Source: Thiomonas sp. (GTDB lineage Bacteria; Pseudomonadota; Gammaproteobacteria; Burkholderiales; Burkholderiaceae). From it: 8,738 bases of DNA. Location: positions 1 to 8,738 of the forward strand of contig DAIAZB010000555.1 in the NCBI GenBank assembly GCA_027443745.1, written 5' to 3'. The position numbers and the translations under genes were made by a program. The stretch's first letter is position 1. Each line of letters opens with the position of its first letter. Positions 1,795 to 7,238 of the stretch are shown piece by piece. The notes beneath the pieces were generated by a model. It made no database searches. It was not told where the DNA came from and was given only the letters and a program-made list of their open reading frames with translations.

Positions 1795-1815
1795 ATGAAT
1801 GATTATATTTATAAT
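1788..1815 (+). promoter_or_regulatory. Consensus sigma-70 promoter of the methyltransferase gene
   Basis: TTGACA at 1788-1793 and TATAAT at 1810-1815 are both perfect consensus hexamers, separated by 16 bp. Transcription would start about 7 nt after the -10, at about 1822-1823, which is the methyltransferase ATG itself. A leaderless message is therefore predicted. A T-run (1781-1786) lies just upstream and could act as a partial UP element. The -35 lies inside the first codons of the divergent recombinase-like gene. Confidence 0.8.
1802..1815. promoter_or_regulatory. 14-bp palindromic candidate operator overlapping both -10 boxes
   Basis: ATTATA-TT-TATAAT is a hexamer inverted repeat with a 2-bp centre at 1808.5. 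The methyltransferase ATG (1823) and the recombinase-like ATG (1794) are each 14.5 bp from that centre. A dimeric protein bound here would block both -10 elements at once. In addition, TTGAC occurs twice as a direct repeat, at 1788 and 1815, each shortly before one of the ATG/CAT start signals. Confidence 0.55.
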
Positions 1816-1829
1816 TGACTACATGCGGT
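1802..1829 (-). promoter_or_regulatory. Predicted weak promoter of the recombinase-like gene
   Basis: On the minus strand TATAAT occupies 1807-1802. It is the other arm of the palindrome that forms the plus-strand -10. Its transcript would start at about 1795, directly before the ATG at 1794, so this mRNA is also predicted leaderless. No good -35 is visible: at the mirror-image position (1829-1824) the sequence is ACCGCA. This direction should be much weaker than the methyltransferase promoter, or depend on an activator. Confidence 0.5.
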
Positions 1830-3016
1830 ACCGCAAACCAAAAACTCGCGGTGATTCCCTCGGCCAGTTCTTCACGCCGCCGAAAATTGCGTCCCTGCTC
1901 GCAGCGGGCCTCAAGCGCGCGCCGGACTCCCTGCTCGAGCTTGGAGCCGGATGTGGCGCGCTCGTATCAGCCGTCCTCTCGCGCTATCCGCAATCTCAGG
2001 CGACGCTGGTCGAACTCGACGGTAAATTGCTTAAGCACCTTCGCCACGAATTCCCGACGCACCATGTGCTCGGTGGCGACGTCCTCGCGCGGGTCAACAA
2101 GTTGCCGATTGAATCGGCCTACGCGGCGGTCGTGGGCAATCCGCCATTCGGCGAATTCGCCGTGAAGCCCAAGGACCAGTTGGCTCTCCGGAGCCTGTTT
2201 CCTGGTTGTGATCGTGGCGGCTGGATGCGACAGGACTTGGCATTCCTGCACGAGAGCTGGAATCGCGTCGCCCCGGGCGGTGAGCTGGCCGTCATACTGG
2301 CTTCGCCAATCGTCAGCGCCCCGATCTTCACCGAGGTCAGGCGTTGGCTATTCGCCGAGGCCGGGTATGTGTCGGTCCGCGAGCTTCCCGAGAATGCTTT
2401 CGAGGGCGCCGAAGTAGGTACTTATCTTCTGACGATCCGGCACCGCGGTCGTGGCCGACGCGCGCGTTCCATCCAGGTGGACCGCTACCGGGGAGATGTC
2501 CTATCACGGACCCGGATCGAGCTTTCACTCGAAGCCGCCGTTGAGCGCATGGACTATCGGTTCCATGCGATTCAGGCGACCGCGGGCAGGCATTGGAAGA
2601 GAGCCCCCTCCCTCGAGTCGCTGGGTGCCCAGGTGGTCAGAGGGAGCCGATCGCACGGGGAGTTCGTGAAGGCGGAAGTGCCCCACGTCCATACGAGCGA
2701 CTTCACCAGCGACTCGATCCGCCTTCGCTTGGGTCAATGCCTCGAGGATGGGTTCCAACTGGCCGAACGCGGCGATATCCTCGTGCCGAGGGTCGGCTCC
2801 CGTTGCCTGCCGCGCGAGGCCATGGTTGTCTCGGGAGCCCGGCCGATCACCGAGGCGGTCTTCCGGATTCGCGTCGCACGCGCCAATCGGGCACGGGTGT
2901 TCGATGCGCTGGCGAGCGAATCGGGGCGCATGTGGCGCATGGCCCACGCCCGAGGCTCCTGCGCGAAGTTTCTGACCGTGTCGGACCTGCTGCGGTTTCC
3001 GGTGGTTGCCCGTTGA
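1823..3016 (+). CDS. N6-adenine DNA methyltransferase, TaqI/Eco57I-like, with C-terminal target-recognition region
   Basis: The 397-aa product should transfer a methyl group from S-adenosylmethionine to the N6 of adenine in a specific DNA site. From this start the motifs are in gamma order. Motif X is GQFFTPPKIA (14-23), the SAM-binding motif I is LELGAGCGAL (38-47), an acidic VELD (63-66) would bind the SAM ribose, and the catalytic motif IV is NPPFGEF (106-112). Residues about 260-397 resemble a target-recognition domain as in type I specificity subunits and M.TaqI: LESLGAQVVRG, HTSDF and RGDILVPRVG. The length is close to that of M.TaqI. An in-frame ATG at 1799 is possible, but it lies upstream of the -10 box, so it would not be on the predicted transcript. 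I therefore chose the leaderless start. No restriction endonuclease gene adjoins it. It may be an orphan methylase or the self-marking part of the neighbouring operon. Confidence 0.88.
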   Translation: MRYRKPKTRGDSLGQFFTPPKIASLLAAGLKRAPDSLLELGAGCGALVSAVLSRYPQSQATLVELDGKLLKHLRHEFPTHHVLGGDVLARVNKLPIESAYAAVVGNPPFGEFAVKPKDQLALRSLFPGCDRGGWMRQDLAFLHESWNRVAPGGELAVILASPIVSAPIFTEVRRWLFAEAGYVSVRELPENAFEGAEVGTYLLTIRHRGRGRRARSIQVDRYRGDVLSRTRIELSLEAAVERMDYRFHAIQATAGRHWKRAPSLESLGAQVVRGSRSHGEFVKAEVPHVHTSDFTSDSIRLRLGQCLEDGFQLAERGDILVPRVGSRCLPREAMVVSGARPITEAVFRIRVARANRARVFDALASESGRMWRMAHARGSCAKFLTVSDLLRFPVVAR

Positions 3017-3065: not shown

Positions 3066-3974
3066 TCAACTTCGGTCGACGAGGTAGCGGTGGATCGCGC
3101 CCACACCTTCGGTCCGACCCTCCAGTTTGACCGGGAAGTCGTACTTCAGTCGGATGTTGTCCCGGCAGCACGCAAACAGGACGATTCCGATGGAACTAGG
3201 TTTTGACCCCAGCGGGGCGATGATCAAGCGCTCGCCTTGCCCAACGGCCTGGCAGGATTTCTTCAGGCACTCGTAGGTCGCCTTGGGATTGTTGGCTCCA
3301 GCAAATGCTAGCTCACAAGAGCGATGCTTGCTGATCACCCTCTCATGCGGTAGCAGGGCATGCATTTCCCAAGTCATACGGTATGGCGGAACCCCGAAGA
3401 TTAGGGTTACGTGTTTGATGAAGTTGCCATCGTCATCCTGCAGGATGCGATCCAGACGATCGGCCTCGAATCCAAGACATGCCACCAGCCGGCCGCCCTC
3501 GTCGTCGCGCAGTTCGTTGGCGAATCCCGGAACGGACTTCAGCCCGCGGAACTTGTCGGCGAACGTGAACGCATAATCCATGCTGATTGCTACGGTCGAC
3601 GGCTTGTAGTGCGCTGGCTCGGCATAGACGAAACCCAGACATCGCCGATCCTCGGCGTTGTATAGGAAGGCCCGGCTCAGGATCAGCATTTCCACCGGGT
3701 CCAGTGACGTCGCTTCCAGCAGGATCATCGCCTCCGGGAATGCCTGCCGGATGCTGTCCAGGTCCGAGGCACGAAAAACCTCGTCTCCCAGCTTCAGATG
3801 GAATGTCTCGGGGTCGTAGTCCACCTCGACGACGTGGTTCGCGCTGTTGCGGGCAATCTCCAGAGAACGACTACCCCGCTCGTCGATGGCTTGGCTCACG
3901 AAAACCAGGCCGAAAGTCTCAGGCGTACTCGCGGCAGACGGGGCGATCAGGCGCATGTCTGCGAACCGGATCAT
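3066..3974 (-). CDS. Unrecognised alpha/beta protein, third gene of the PRTase/ATPase operon
   Basis: The product is 302 aa. The start is the ATG at 3974-3972, which overlaps the ATPase stop as ATGA and is preceded by AGGG at a 10-nt spacing. An upstream in-frame ATG at 4022 would lie deep inside the ATPase gene and is less likely. No signal peptide or membrane segment is seen. The sequence alternates hydrophobic strands and helices. It includes AMILLEATSLDPVEMLILS (82-100), a GFVYAEP strand (114-120), LVACLGFEADRL (163-174), HVTLIFGVPPY (188-198) and a conserved-looking loop LIIAPLGSKPSSIGIVLFA (250-268). The last resembles PLGxKPxxxG motifs I associate with uncharacterised proteins of such operons, but I cannot name the family. 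Translational coupling to the ATPase suggests a stoichiometric partner, perhaps an adaptor, effector or nucleotide-binding component. This role is inferred from position only. Confidence 0.78.
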   Translation of the reverse strand: MIRFADMRLIAPSAASTPETFGLVFVSQAIDERGSRSLEIARNSANHVVEVDYDPETFHLKLGDEVFRASDLDSIRQAFPEAMILLEATSLDPVEMLILSRAFLYNAEDRRCLGFVYAEPAHYKPSTVAISMDYAFTFADKFRGLKSVPGFANELRDDEGGRLVACLGFEADRLDRILQDDDGNFIKHVTLIFGVPPYRMTWEMHALLPHERVISKHRSCELAFAGANNPKATYECLKKSCQAVGQGERLIIAPLGSKPSSIGIVLFACCRDNIRLKYDFPVKLEGRTEGVGAIHRYLVDRS

Positions 3975-5971
3975 TCGAACAGATCCCTGGAACGATCGGA
4001 CGGTTCTTCCTGGCTCTCCCACCTTGCAATGTAGTCCTTGAGCAGCAGTTCGAAGTGGCTATCCGTGCCGGTGAAGATCAGGTTGATCTCGGAGGCCTTG
4101 AGCGTCAGCTTGCGTCGCTTTCGGTAACTGATGCCGAAATGCGCGCTGTAAATCGGATTAGGGACATAATCGTGCTGCGCCAGCGAAGAATCGGCCTTAT
4201 TCTTGGTGTCCTCCTCTTCGTAGAGGACCGACCAGATCAGCGCCTCGCGCAACAGAGACTGCGTTGCTTCGCTCAACGCTTCCTTGTCAGCACCGTCAAT
4301 TGAGAAATGGTTGATCTCCGGCTCGCTCAGCGTGGGTCGTCTATGTGCAGCCTGGAACAGGCGACCCAAGCGCTTGAGGAGGGGCTCCAGTTCGCGTCCA
4401 CGAAGTCCCAAGTTAGGGATGTCCTTGAGCAAGACGGAACTGGTGTCCTTGGCAGCCAAGGCTTGGATATCTTCAGGGATCGATTCCACACTGGCGATGG
4501 CATCGGAAGCGGTACTGAACGCTGCTTCGCGAAGCGCCGTATGGCAGAACTCGATGAAGAAACGCAGGTTTGGTGCCGCCATCTGGCAATACCGATCGAA
4601 CCCTGCATAGAGCGGATTGGCGCGGCGAGGCAAGCCGTCATAAAGATAGAAGAGTGCGCCATGTAGGTTGTTGCTGATCCAGTCAAAAAACGGATTGTCC
4701 CGCCCTTGCGCTGGGCTATAGTTCCGCAGGTGGTCCAGCACATTGGACGGCCCGGGCGCGTCGCGATTCAGGATGAATCCGGCGACGGTGCTGGCCGCCG
4801 GCTGGTCGGGCCGCCAGAAATCTTCTGGCGATAGATTACTGGCCTTGTGCTTTTTCAACCCACGAGTGGCTACCTCCCGCCAGCGCTTGCGCAGCGGCCC
4901 ATCGTTGTTCACCCCGGCAGCGATCTCGGGCGCAGCCTTGCCGGGCAGCAAGGTACCAGCAGCTTCCTTGATGGCTTTCCGGTATCCATCCGCACGCCGC
5001 TCGTTGAGACGCTTCGGATCCCGTAGTCGCTCAACGTCGAAGGACGGGCAATGAATGTCCGTCTGCTTGTTGAATTTCATCAACAACAACTCGGCGGCCA
5101 GCACCTTGAAATCCATCTCCGTCCCCAGCCGCTCCTCGAGGTCAATTGTGCGGATGTCGTGGGTCTCGACGATCTGTTCGTTGCCGCTGGTCACAAGATT
5201 GTCGACCGAGTCCCGGCGCATAGCCAAGCTGAACGAGTACCGATTCTTCGGATGCTTGACTAAGTCGCAAATCAACTGCTGCTGAAACGGCTTGAGGTTC
5301 TCGAACTCGTCGACGAAGATGCGCAGGAACAGGCGCTCCAGGCGTTCGTCGGCATCGGCGATATCGTCGGCCAATTCGGAGAGCGCGTCGTCCAACCGAA
5401 AGAAACGTGGTGGATTTGTGTCAGGGTTTTGCAACCAGTGGCTGAGTTCGAATCGCCGATCTTTCGCAAACCGGCGAAGCTGCCCGTAGGTATCGATCTC
5501 CGTCCCGAGAAGAATGCCTACGCTGTCGGGCACTCGTCGGCTACGTAGGTCGATCACACCGCCGACCAGCGACGCGGAGCTGAGCGACTCGATAAAACAG
5601 CCGAATTCCTCGAGAACCACGGCGGCCACGTAATGGATGAATGCCATGCTGGCGTTCCTTTCGCCGATCCATTCGGGTTTCATCAGGTCGCAGAAGCCCG
5701 TGTCGGTCCGCCAATACAGTCCGATGCCCTGGCCGAACATCGACGCCGGCAGGTCGCGCCGGTTGCGACTGAGTTGCGACCGATGGGAGAAGTAGCGCAG
5801 GAAGATCGTCTTCCCGCACCCACGTCCCCCGACAATGCGCACCGACTTGCGGTCTCGATGGAGCGTCAGGCCATCGAAGAAGTACGGCACGATGAATTCA
5901 TCCGTCACGTCAGCGCCGAGCAACTCGGCGCGGTTGTTGACGAACTCATCGATGATGCTCTCTGCCTTCAT
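3971..5971 (-). CDS. ORC/CDC6-like AAA+ ATPase (predicted defence sensor)
   Basis: The 666-aa product is a P-loop ATPase. Walker A is GGRGCGKT (48-55), Walker B is RIFVDEFENL with the acidic pair DE at 221-222, and a sensor-1-like strand YSFSLAMRR lies at 245-253. The long region after about 290 is helical. It ends in a likely winged-helix unit (about 565-640) with the wing-like segment NPIYSAHFGISYRKRRKLTL, which suggests DNA binding. This layout fits the bacterial family annotated as ORC-CDC6 family AAA ATPase, which is often found beside PRTase-like proteins rather than in replication operons. The start is supported by AGAGGG 8 nt upstream, overlapping the stop codon of the preceding gene. 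Its stop overlaps the next start as ATGA. The probable role is recognition of foreign or abnormal DNA and ATP-driven activation of its partners; this is inference. A replication initiator role is unlikely because no origin-like repeats or plasmid genes are present. Confidence 0.85.
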   Translation of the reverse strand: MKAESIIDEFVNNRAELLGADVTDEFIVPYFFDGLTLHRDRKSVRIVGGRGCGKTIFLRYFSHRSQLSRNRRDLPASMFGQGIGLYWRTDTGFCDLMKPEWIGERNASMAFIHYVAAVVLEEFGCFIESLSSASLVGGVIDLRSRRVPDSVGILLGTEIDTYGQLRRFAKDRRFELSHWLQNPDTNPPRFFRLDDALSELADDIADADERLERLFLRIFVDEFENLKPFQQQLICDLVKHPKNRYSFSLAMRRDSVDNLVTSGNEQIVETHDIRTIDLEERLGTEMDFKVLAAELLLMKFNKQTDIHCPSFDVERLRDPKRLNERRADGYRKAIKEAAGTLLPGKAAPEIAAGVNNDGPLRKRWREVATRGLKKHKASNLSPEDFWRPDQPAASTVAGFILNRDAPGPSNVLDHLRNYSPAQGRDNPFFDWISNNLHGALFYLYDGLPRRANPLYAGFDRYCQMAAPNLRFFIEFCHTALREAAFSTASDAIASVESIPEDIQALAAKDTSSVLLKDIPNLGLRGRELEPLLKRLGRLFQAAHRRPTLSEPEINHFSIDGADKEALSEATQSLLREALIWSVLYEEEDTKNKADSSLAQHDYVPNPIYSAHFGISYRKRRKLTLKASEINLIFTGTDSHFELLLKDYIARWESQEEPSDRSRDLFE

Positions 5972-5984
5972 CAGGGTCGCCCTC

Positions 5985-6905
5985 TTAACGCCGCAGCAAC
6001 GGTTTCCATTGGTCGCACTCGGACCAATAAGCCCGCAAGGTGTTGTTGGGCGTACGGTCGGGTAGTAGGACGGTCAGTTCCAGTGAGTGCCGGCTTTCCT
6101 GGCCGACCCCTTTGGTGCTCATCAGACTCTGGTAGAACTGGCGCGTTTCGGCAACAGTGTTATGGCCGTCACGCGCCCAAATGCCTGATTTCGAAACCAA
6201 CTCACTGAAGAACGCCGAACTGTCATGTAGCGTCTCGACGGGCTTGACCTGGATCCTCGGGTGGTCTTGCCGGATCTTCTCGATGCCCTGCACAGCAGCC
6301 ATCAACGGAACATACACGCACTGAGTCGTATCAGGCAGGTTCGCCAGTTTGTAGGCCCTGGCGAATTTGTTGAACTGGCTTCCGGTACCCAACAGGTCGT
6401 CGAGCAGCACCAGCAAGGGAGGCGGCGCCTTCCAAATGTTCTGGTTATCTGCGCGCACGAAGTATCGGTCCTCAATGCGCGCATTGATCCCGAACTTGCG
6501 CAAGACGGAGTCGCCACTGTTGCCGGGACGGGCATCCAGTTGCTGCCCGTCGACTGGCATGAATCGGATCGCTATCGGGGTACGAGCAGTCCGGTCATGA
6601 AACTTGTACTCCATGTCCTCGACGCAACGGAAGTTCCAAAGACTTGCGTCGCGCAGCAGGCCGGGAACAATGACCTCGATGATCTGCCGATAGCTGCTCT
6701 GCATCATCCGATCGGTTCGAATCACTGCGGCGCTGAGCATTTGCGCAGCAAGATACTGTTCCTCATCGGAAGAAAAGTTGCGCTTCCATGCATCGAATGC
6801 CGTTGCCGTGACGATGTCGATGGCGTTGTTGGCCACCAAACTCCTGAACCTCGTGAACACCTGTCGCGATAGGCCCTCATGGCCCCCAGGCACCACAAAC
6901 GCCAT
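5985..6905 (-). CDS. Phosphoribosyltransferase-like protein (PRTase-CE type), first gene of defence-like operon
   Basis: The product is 306 aa. The type I phosphoribosyltransferase PRPP-binding loop is clear: LLVLLDDLLGTGSQF at 164-178, with the paired acids Asp169-Asp170 and the GTGS turn. It lies in the middle of the protein rather than near the C-terminus as in housekeeping enzymes. A C-terminal signature TPNNTLRAYWS (285-295) recurs, as I recall, in PRTase-like proteins of predicted bacterial conflict systems. An N-terminal helical region of about 90 residues precedes the core. The substrate is unknown; the fold would bind PRPP or a nucleotide and either transfer or cleave at ribose C1, or act as a sensor. 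AAGGGG 7 nt before the ATG supports the start. The ATPase gene follows after 13 bp. No base-salvage genes are nearby, so purine or pyrimidine metabolism is not supported. Confidence 0.82.
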   Translation of the reverse strand: MAFVVPGGHEGLSRQVFTRFRSLVANNAIDIVTATAFDAWKRNFSSDEEQYLAAQMLSAAVIRTDRMMQSSYRQIIEVIVPGLLRDASLWNFRCVEDMEYKFHDRTARTPIAIRFMPVDGQQLDARPGNSGDSVLRKFGINARIEDRYFVRADNQNIWKAPPPLLVLLDDLLGTGSQFNKFARAYKLANLPDTTQCVYVPLMAAVQGIEKIRQDHPRIQVKPVETLHDSSAFFSELVSKSGIWARDGHNTVAETRQFYQSLMSTKGVGQESRHSLELTVLLPDRTPNNTLRAYWSECDQWKPLLRR

Positions 6906-6912
6906 GGCTAGT

Positions 6913-6937
6913 CCCCTTGTTTGCCGCGATTATTCCA
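6913..6937 (-). promoter_or_regulatory. Extended -10 promoter and RBS of the three-gene operon
   Basis: On the minus strand TGG-AATAAT (6937-6929) is an extended -10 element with one mismatch to TATAAT. No good -35 is visible 16-18 bp upstream, which suits an extended -10 promoter. Transcription would begin near 6922, giving a leader of about 16 nt that contains the ribosome binding site AAGGGG (6918-6913), 7 nt before the ATG at 6905. The element sits at the junction with the EAL remnant. Confidence 0.5.
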
Positions 6938-7238
6938 CAGCTGACGGAGCTCAGTGCAGACAAACCGCGGACGGTGCCCTTTCTTTCGGGACTGATCGAT
7001 CTCGTGCAGGGGCTCGGCCTGCGTGCGGTGGTCGAAGGCTTGTCATCTCCCGAGCTGGTCGCGCTGGCCTGCATCATGGGTGCGGATGCGGGGCAAGAAT
7101 ACGCGCTGTCGCACCCCTTGCCGGCAACAGAGCTGCCGGCTTGGGTGCACGCCCCGGGCATTGATCAATCCGGCGCAACCGCTGGGTGAGCTCGCAGCGC
7201 TGGCCGCGCAGCTCACCCGATCGGGCGTCACCCGCTGA
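6917..7238 (+). pseudogene. EAL-domain (c-di-GMP phosphodiesterase) C-terminal remnant, truncated and frameshifted
   Basis: The plus-strand frame from 6917 contains the last third of an EAL domain: SGLIDLVQGLGLRAVVEGL, then SSPELVALACIMGAD, then AGQEYALSHPLPATELPAWV. These match the family's LGLxVVAEGVE, GCDxxQGYxxSxPLP and AxEL blocks. The N-terminal two thirds, including the EAL motif itself and the metal-binding acids before this point, are missing. After about 7155 the frame seems to shift: the frame that ends at 7238 continues plausibly as NPAQPLGELAALAAQLTRSG. The gene is therefore dead. Its break lies within about 50 bp of the defence-like operon start, so it probably marks the edge of the inserted block. 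Confidence 0.75.

Follow-up and report, generated by a model that had tools for sequence, protein, structure and literature searches.

The question raised by the window (the whole 8,738-nucleotide stretch of DNA analyzed here) is whether three tightly packed genes on its minus strand form a defence system, as the first-pass annotation proposed, and by what means such a system would act. A gene for a PRTase-CE family phosphoribosyltransferase-like protein (hereafter PRTase; 6905-5985, 306 aa), the presumed effector, is followed after a gap of 13 bp (5972-5984) by a gene for an ORC/CDC6-like AAA ATPase (5971-3971, 666 aa). The stop codon of the latter overlaps, in the tetranucleotide ATGA (3971-3974), the start of a gene for a CARF6-type, CARF/SAVED-like protein (CARF6; 3974-3066, 302 aa), the presumed ligand-sensing switch. 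The compact arrangement originally described is borne out by the ORFs and their coordinates. The third gene is read here from the ATG at 3974, the start chosen by the ORF caller being an upstream GTG at 4022; a database copy of its product (P0001) has 302 aa. The nearest named database copies belong to a Metallibacterium scheffleri MAG, with 98% identity for the ATPase and 96% for the third protein. The trio had also been credited with its own promoter, which our scan did not recover: a single sigma-70-like site was found between 2900 and 7300 (1.2 expected by chance), on the plus strand within the ATPase gene, and no promoter-like site was seen upstream of the PRTase gene. Across the window, the promoter and terminator scan gave nothing above chance, the Rfam scan no match at the gathering threshold and the tRNA search no tRNA.

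Downstream of the trio and convergent with it lies a plus-strand gene for a DNA N6-adenine-type methylase (1799-3016, 405 aa), the end of which is 49 bp from the third gene; the first-pass annotation missed it as a conserved partner, and we treat it as the fourth component. Beyond the methylase are the truncated C-terminal part of an IS630-type transposase (424-780) and an integrase-like gene (835-1794) with weak matches to tyrosine-recombinase profiles. The start codons of the integrase-like gene and the methylase ORF are 4 bp apart, and the usual recombinase catalytic positions look altered by eye; the gene is possibly a decayed integrase or a regulator. It was considered as a fifth component and rejected, as phmmer found no homologue at 1e-3 in the other 52 loci of the survey described below. 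Upstream of the PRTase gene, a plus-strand fragment (6917-7189) weakly similar to the C-terminal end of an EAL domain (c-di-GMP phosphodiesterase; E 3e-4, under all curated cut-offs) may represent the border at which the module was inserted.

The survey comprised 53 loci, namely 50 from a scan of bacterial and archaeal genomes with the ATPase alignment, the window and two plasmid loci; being seeded by the ATPase, it covers only ATPase-bearing loci. Genes were called by greedy ORF picking with bacterial start codons, the first codon being set to M in some loci; L004 and L005 are identical, and L045 and L046 are 99% alike. In all 53 loci the gene directly upstream of the ATPase gene encodes the PRTase (split into two ORF pieces at L030). 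The CARF6 gene follows the ATPase gene directly in 49 of them, with a cut-off piece at L031, and the contigs of the remaining four end at that point. The record titles assign the loci to Pseudomonadota, Bacteroidota, Planctomycetota, Campylobacterota, MAGs of Desulfobacteraceae/Thermodesulfobacteriota and one archaeon, and across this range the order PRTase-ATPase-CARF6 is constant. Two more complete modules were reached from other components, one on a Cupriavidus plasmid (L100, from the methylase) and one on an Acinetobacter contig labelled as phage (L099, from the ATPase and CARF6). The homologues therefore do co-occur elsewhere, and the proposal of a candidate defence operon stands in so far as the trio is conserved together; its restriction to three genes does not, since the usual unit has four, a methylase homologue adjoining the trio in 47 of the 53 loci.

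All four proteins of the window look intact, judging by their motifs; residues are called invariant below if they are so among the aligned sequences of the 53 loci, in columns at least 85% occupied. The PRTase matches PF24390 (PRTase-CE; E 1e-35, 124 bits against a cut-off of 27), its predicted structure is a type I PRTase fold, and the PRPP-type loop DDLLGTGS noticed at first reading is present, with D169, D170 and G175 invariant, as is W40. It also matches the PADLOC model PRTase_III-A (E 3e-12), a label that we take to denote retron type III-A. In a PDB search with the PRTase profile, Nup133 (E 2.5e-4 to 2e-3) outranked UPRTase (E 5e-3); the Nup133 matches were judged spurious. A PRTase is the usual effector of type III retrons, according to PMC12548924, and PMC9122126 reports that DprA paired with a PRTase confers protection from T7 and lambda, with the PRTase as the proposed effector.

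The ATPase matches PF24389 (ORC-CDC6-like) with E 2.6e-85 and 287.7 bits (cut-off 27), and the matches to PF24389 and PF24390 are both far above chance. The intact Walker motifs reported at first reading are likewise confirmed, Walker A (G48-G51, G53-T55) and Walker B (D221/E222) being invariant; a PDB search with the ATPase profile returned one weak guanylate kinase row and no useful relative. The third protein, initially left as unrecognised, matches the PADLOC group CARF6 (E 3e-53, residues 35-313 of the 318-aa ORF), a group taken over from the 2020 CARF classification. Its predicted fold is CARF/Rossmann, resembling the CARF domains of Csm6 and Cam1 and, more weakly, SAVED, and its invariant residues are D31, Y117, E119, P120, Y123, G168, E170, R173, K258 and P259, some of which look like CARF ligand motifs. 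CARF and SAVED families are established nucleotide receptors, and we regard the protein as a putative nucleotide receptor of CARF6 type, here encoded in a module without a sensor-effector fusion. A PDB search with its profile yielded designed SAKe proteins with no passing domain, which were judged spurious.

The methylase matches PF02384 (E 2.5e-7) and the PADLOC model MTase_II (E 2.8e-34). Its invariant residues are T26, the motif I residues G51 and G53, and N114, P115 and P116 of the NPP motif, which reads NPPF in the window; the PDB search gave SAM methyltransferases at E 8e-4 or worse and no useful relative. Of the six loci lacking it, five (L019, L031, L041, L044 and L052) have their downstream side cut by contig ends, and in the sixth, L051 (Methanoregula), no methylase was detected on a contig with 723 bp of sequence before the PRTase gene. 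The methylase lies upstream on the same strand in 11 of the 47 linked loci, downstream and convergent in 21 (among them L018, with a second methylase upstream) and downstream on the same strand in 15; these three arrangements imply that the linkage has been kept or re-formed repeatedly. By our rough gene calls, 41 of the 47 have it as the immediate neighbour of the trio. The methylase family extends beyond the module, since a Rhizobium match reached by starting from the methylase has no trio among its annotated neighbours. The module methylase of L001 and Klebsiella plasmids is labelled tRNA1(Val) adenine-N6 methyltransferase in several plasmid records, which is probably a misannotation.

Additional genes accompany the methylase in some loci. 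In five Pseudomonas loci (L006, L009, L010, L017 and L036) a SIR2-like gene (PF13289), ThsA-like in the one of them scanned with PADLOC, lies between CARF6 and the methylase on the strand of the methylase and is possibly a second effector. An accessory pair consisting of an ORC-CDC6-like/STAND ATPase (~570 aa) and a protein of 280-330 aa of unknown family was observed in L008, L018, L020 and L022, the second ATPase and the unknown gene being located between trio and methylase in L008. A family of small genes divergent from the methylase was seen in 11 loci (e.g., L017:15281-15691), and the one member scanned gave a weak HTH_3 match (E 0.002, below the cut-off), like the controller protein of a restriction system.

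The identities of PRTase, ATPase and CARF6 are closely correlated among themselves (Pearson 0.92-0.94, Spearman 0.73-0.77), and those of the methylase follow the trio more loosely (Pearson 0.82-0.87, Spearman 0.36-0.51). Of 104 locus pairs whose ATPases share 50-97% identity, 14 have methylases that are less than 42% identical (for the L013/L018 pair, the upstream one of the two L018 methylases was used); between the window and Pseudoxanthomonas, for example, the ATPases are 75% and the methylases 35% identical. This pattern of identities indicates repeated exchange of the methylase for a distant relative, with the trio conserved. The exchange is not accompanied by a strongly variable block in any of the three trio proteins, the only two dips being modest (0.15 at about 301-330 of the ATPase and 0.14 at the N-terminal end of CARF6), so nothing resembling a matching target-recognition domain is apparent in the trio. 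Such weak variation fits a methylase acting as the reader and would also fit the lack of any sequence-specific sensing, and we infer that target specificity comes either from the methylase itself or from no sequence.

Methylase exchange of this kind resembles that in restriction-modification systems, and together with the frequent linkage it could mean that the methylase protects DNA and a complex of ATPase, CARF6 and PRTase directly damages or modifies unmethylated DNA, for example by phosphoribosylation of bases. The module shares with type II restriction-modification a DNA methylase with intact motifs. However, neither a nuclease family nor a cognate endonuclease was found in PRTase, ATPase or CARF6 (Pfam and PADLOC, E up to 1), and strong variation in step with the methylase is absent from the trio. 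We consider this restriction-like action improbable.

The position of the PRTase proved to be exchangeable. PF24389 (ORC-CDC6-like), PF24390 (PRTase-CE) and PF24391 (HD-CE) are consecutive Pfam accessions, of which the window holds members of the first two, and these labels carry no tested function. A first sample of 398 genomes from the phylum of the Pseudoxanthomonas genome had PF24389 over the cut-off in 14 and PF24390 in 18, both in the same place in 5 (including the seed, G001); each also occurs without the other. HD-CE takes the place of the PRTase beside the ATPase in the relatives L072, which also has a cytosine-5 methylase, and L074, and a calcineurin-like phosphoesterase does so in L073 (L098 has the same ORF coordinates). 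A neighbour of the HD-CE variant (L074:6077-7966) matches the PADLOC phage-defence candidate PDC-M33A (E 5e-191). In a second phylum sample, 18 of 385 genomes were over the cut-off, and six places were inspected besides the seed. There, calcineurin-like enzymes occupy the place of the PRTase in L093, with a Dam-type methylase, and in L094; L092 has the full set with a methylase of another family (N6_N4_Mtase); L096 combines a methylase with an ATPase of 853 aa and CARF6, and no enzyme was identified for its slot; L095 has a methylase and a 1236-aa ATPase ORF, with no CARF6 match; and L097 gave no match to the profiles used. CARF6 adjoins the ATPase in L092-L094 and L096, and PADLOC recovered it from each of the six relatives scanned (L072, L073, L074, L077, L093 and L096). 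These replacements of the PRTase by HD or calcineurin-like enzymes, with ATPase and CARF6 remaining, define what we read from the gene neighbourhoods as a swappable slot, and the slot enzymes found are of nucleotide or phosphoester type. In certain other predicted conflict systems, the variable effector is most often a domain of the calcineurin superfamily, as stated in PMC7159879.

The same PRTase family also occurs apart from the ATPase. Among 12 PRTase loci without ATPase (of 14 such places over the cut-off), a reverse transcriptase adjoins the PRTase in nine, four recognized by Pfam and the other five by a profile derived from the Pfam-recognized ones, and these nine loci look like retrons by gene content. 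This neighbourhood favours an effector over a sensor role for the PRTase. A further methylase-linked PRTase system was observed in L081, where a related PRTase is accompanied by a helicase (NOV_C), a NADAR protein and a DUF1156 methylase; the ORFs of L080 are arranged similarly.

A different division of labour is conceivable, in which a nucleotide signal, derived from PRPP or otherwise, is produced or cleared by the slot enzyme and bound by CARF6. CARF6 would then control the ATPase, which would in turn block replication or transcription of foreign DNA. The established receptor role of CARF and SAVED families, the conserved CARF6 positions that resemble ligand motifs, and the chemistry of the slot enzymes are all in favour of such a relay. 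So are four divergent loci (L075-L078) that have a PRTase, an ATPase and a gene in the CARF position, with no match to the methylase profile: the scanned neighbours include HAD-type genes at L075 and L077 and PfkB-type, kinase-like genes at L076 and L077, and these loci look more like signal synthesis and are a possible nucleoside-signal variant. PRTases of Ter systems have been proposed to make a nucleoside- or nucleotide-derived signal, according to PMC7824862 and PMC5512222, with HAD phosphoesterases joining them in the former. On the other hand, varied chemistries in one slot fit interchangeable toxins better than a single receptor ligand, and the retron-like loci contain the same PRTase family in a type of system whose description includes no CARF protein. 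We regard a signal relay of this form as fairly unlikely.

The module travels on mobile elements. Relatives of the ATPase were found in 147 plasmid records, 130 of them from Klebsiella and 133 typed as conjugative, and separate searches gave similar numbers for PRTase (142) and CARF6 (145). The Klebsiella four-gene DNA is present in 4 of 5,426 E. coli genomes at 99.9-100% identity, in all cases on plasmids of strains C600 and J53; the window module gave no megablast match in the E. coli genomes. Neighbouring genes were scanned for 150 of 172 selected genes (those of at least 130 aa, from loci other than L001, L004, L046 and the window), the largest genes and some short-contig loci having been dropped. 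Among the families listed, 25 of 151 from PADLOC and 25 of 126 from Pfam, integrases (6), SIR2 (5), TniQ (4) and ArdC (3) recur, AbiE, IetS and type I specificity models were matched once each, and none is a nucleotide cyclase of CBASS (CD-NTase) or type III CRISPR (Cas10). Taken as raw counts, not set against a background, these neighbours describe a mobile, defence-like setting.

Conjugative plasmids and nearby transposon or integrase genes would also suit an addiction or plasmid-maintenance element, in which the methylase or CARF6 restrains a toxic PRTase, loss of the element harms the cell and phage defence is incidental. Yet the 50 genome loci are on contigs not titled plasmids, and a set of four genes that includes an ATPase and at times gains SIR2 is larger than an addiction pair; we find this explanation highly improbable.

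We therefore prefer to read the locus as a four-gene, mobile, self-methylation-gated, ORC-driven abortive-infection module with a swappable nucleotide-enzyme effector, to which we assign a probability of about 0.5. In this module, the methylase would mark host DNA, and the ATPase, an initiator-type DNA-binding AAA protein, would survey DNA with its partner CARF6. On meeting unmarked DNA, the ATPase-CARF6 complex would release or activate the PRTase, which with its intact PRPP site would drain or modify a nucleotide or PRPP pool, and the infected cell would no longer support the invader; CARF6 would serve as a ligand-gated on/off switch. From the fixed gene order, the co-occurrence of the methylase, the intact motifs, the CARF-like and PRTase folds and the exchange of methylases and slot enzymes, all of which are observed, we infer self-marking, DNA sensing and the roles of PRTase and CARF6. 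On this genomic evidence, the four genes very likely constitute a defence module, and the methylase probably marks self DNA. The PRTase is placed as the effector because of the retron and DprA-PRTase reports, the calcineurin effectors elsewhere and the types of slot enzymes, and the chances of this assignment appear even; the part of a ligand switch is given to CARF6 tentatively. Several observations stand against the four-gene reading: the module has no identified nuclease or cyclase, L075-L078 gave no match to the methylase profile and L051 no detected methylase, the trio holds no strongly variable block that follows the methylase, some genomes hold a single one of the PRTase and ATPase families, and the methylase occurs without an annotated trio.

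A broader version of the preferred reading, which we think unlikely, would make the methylase, ORC/CDC6 ATPase and CARF6 a chassis that senses unmethylated DNA and drives interchangeable PRTase, HD or calcineurin-like enzymes, with CARF6 reading a PRPP-derived, cyclase-independent signal. If true, this would amount to methylation-gated second-messenger immunity.

The closest known systems each share a part of the module. Type III retrons have a PRTase homologous to that of the module, whereas the module has ATPase, CARF6 and methylase instead of the reverse transcriptase, for which the 53 loci gave no match at E <= 1e-5. According to PMC12839542, BREX is alike in combining a methylase (BrxX) with an ATPase of the ORC/Cdc6 clade (BrxC), and BrxX has a specificity role in type 1 BREX; a methylase as possible specificity unit is a further likeness. 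The module differs in having PRTase and CARF6 instead, and no BREX model (e.g., PglZ, BrxC) was among the PADLOC matches of five window proteins at E up to 1. The DprA and PRTase pair, or ShosTA, likewise unites a DNA-sensing partner with a PRTase as proposed effector, but with another sensor and, as described in PMC9122126, with neither methylase nor CARF.

Pfam and PADLOC already have names for the component families, and earlier comparative-genomic work may well have predicted parts of their association, perhaps even the whole set; our full-text literature search found no paper, experiment or mechanism for this gene set. The present analysis adds the four-gene unit, the swappable slot and the exchange of the methylase. 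If the proposed mechanism is true, the module joins self-marking methylation, as in restriction and BREX, with the nucleotide-centred effectors and receptors of retrons, CBASS and type III CRISPR. It would offer a tractable system for studying the action of PRTase effectors, in retrons as in similar systems, and the signals sensed by CARF proteins that lack a CRISPR cyclase. With relatives on conjugative Klebsiella plasmids, it would also have a bearing on plasmid and phage ecology in clinical bacteria.
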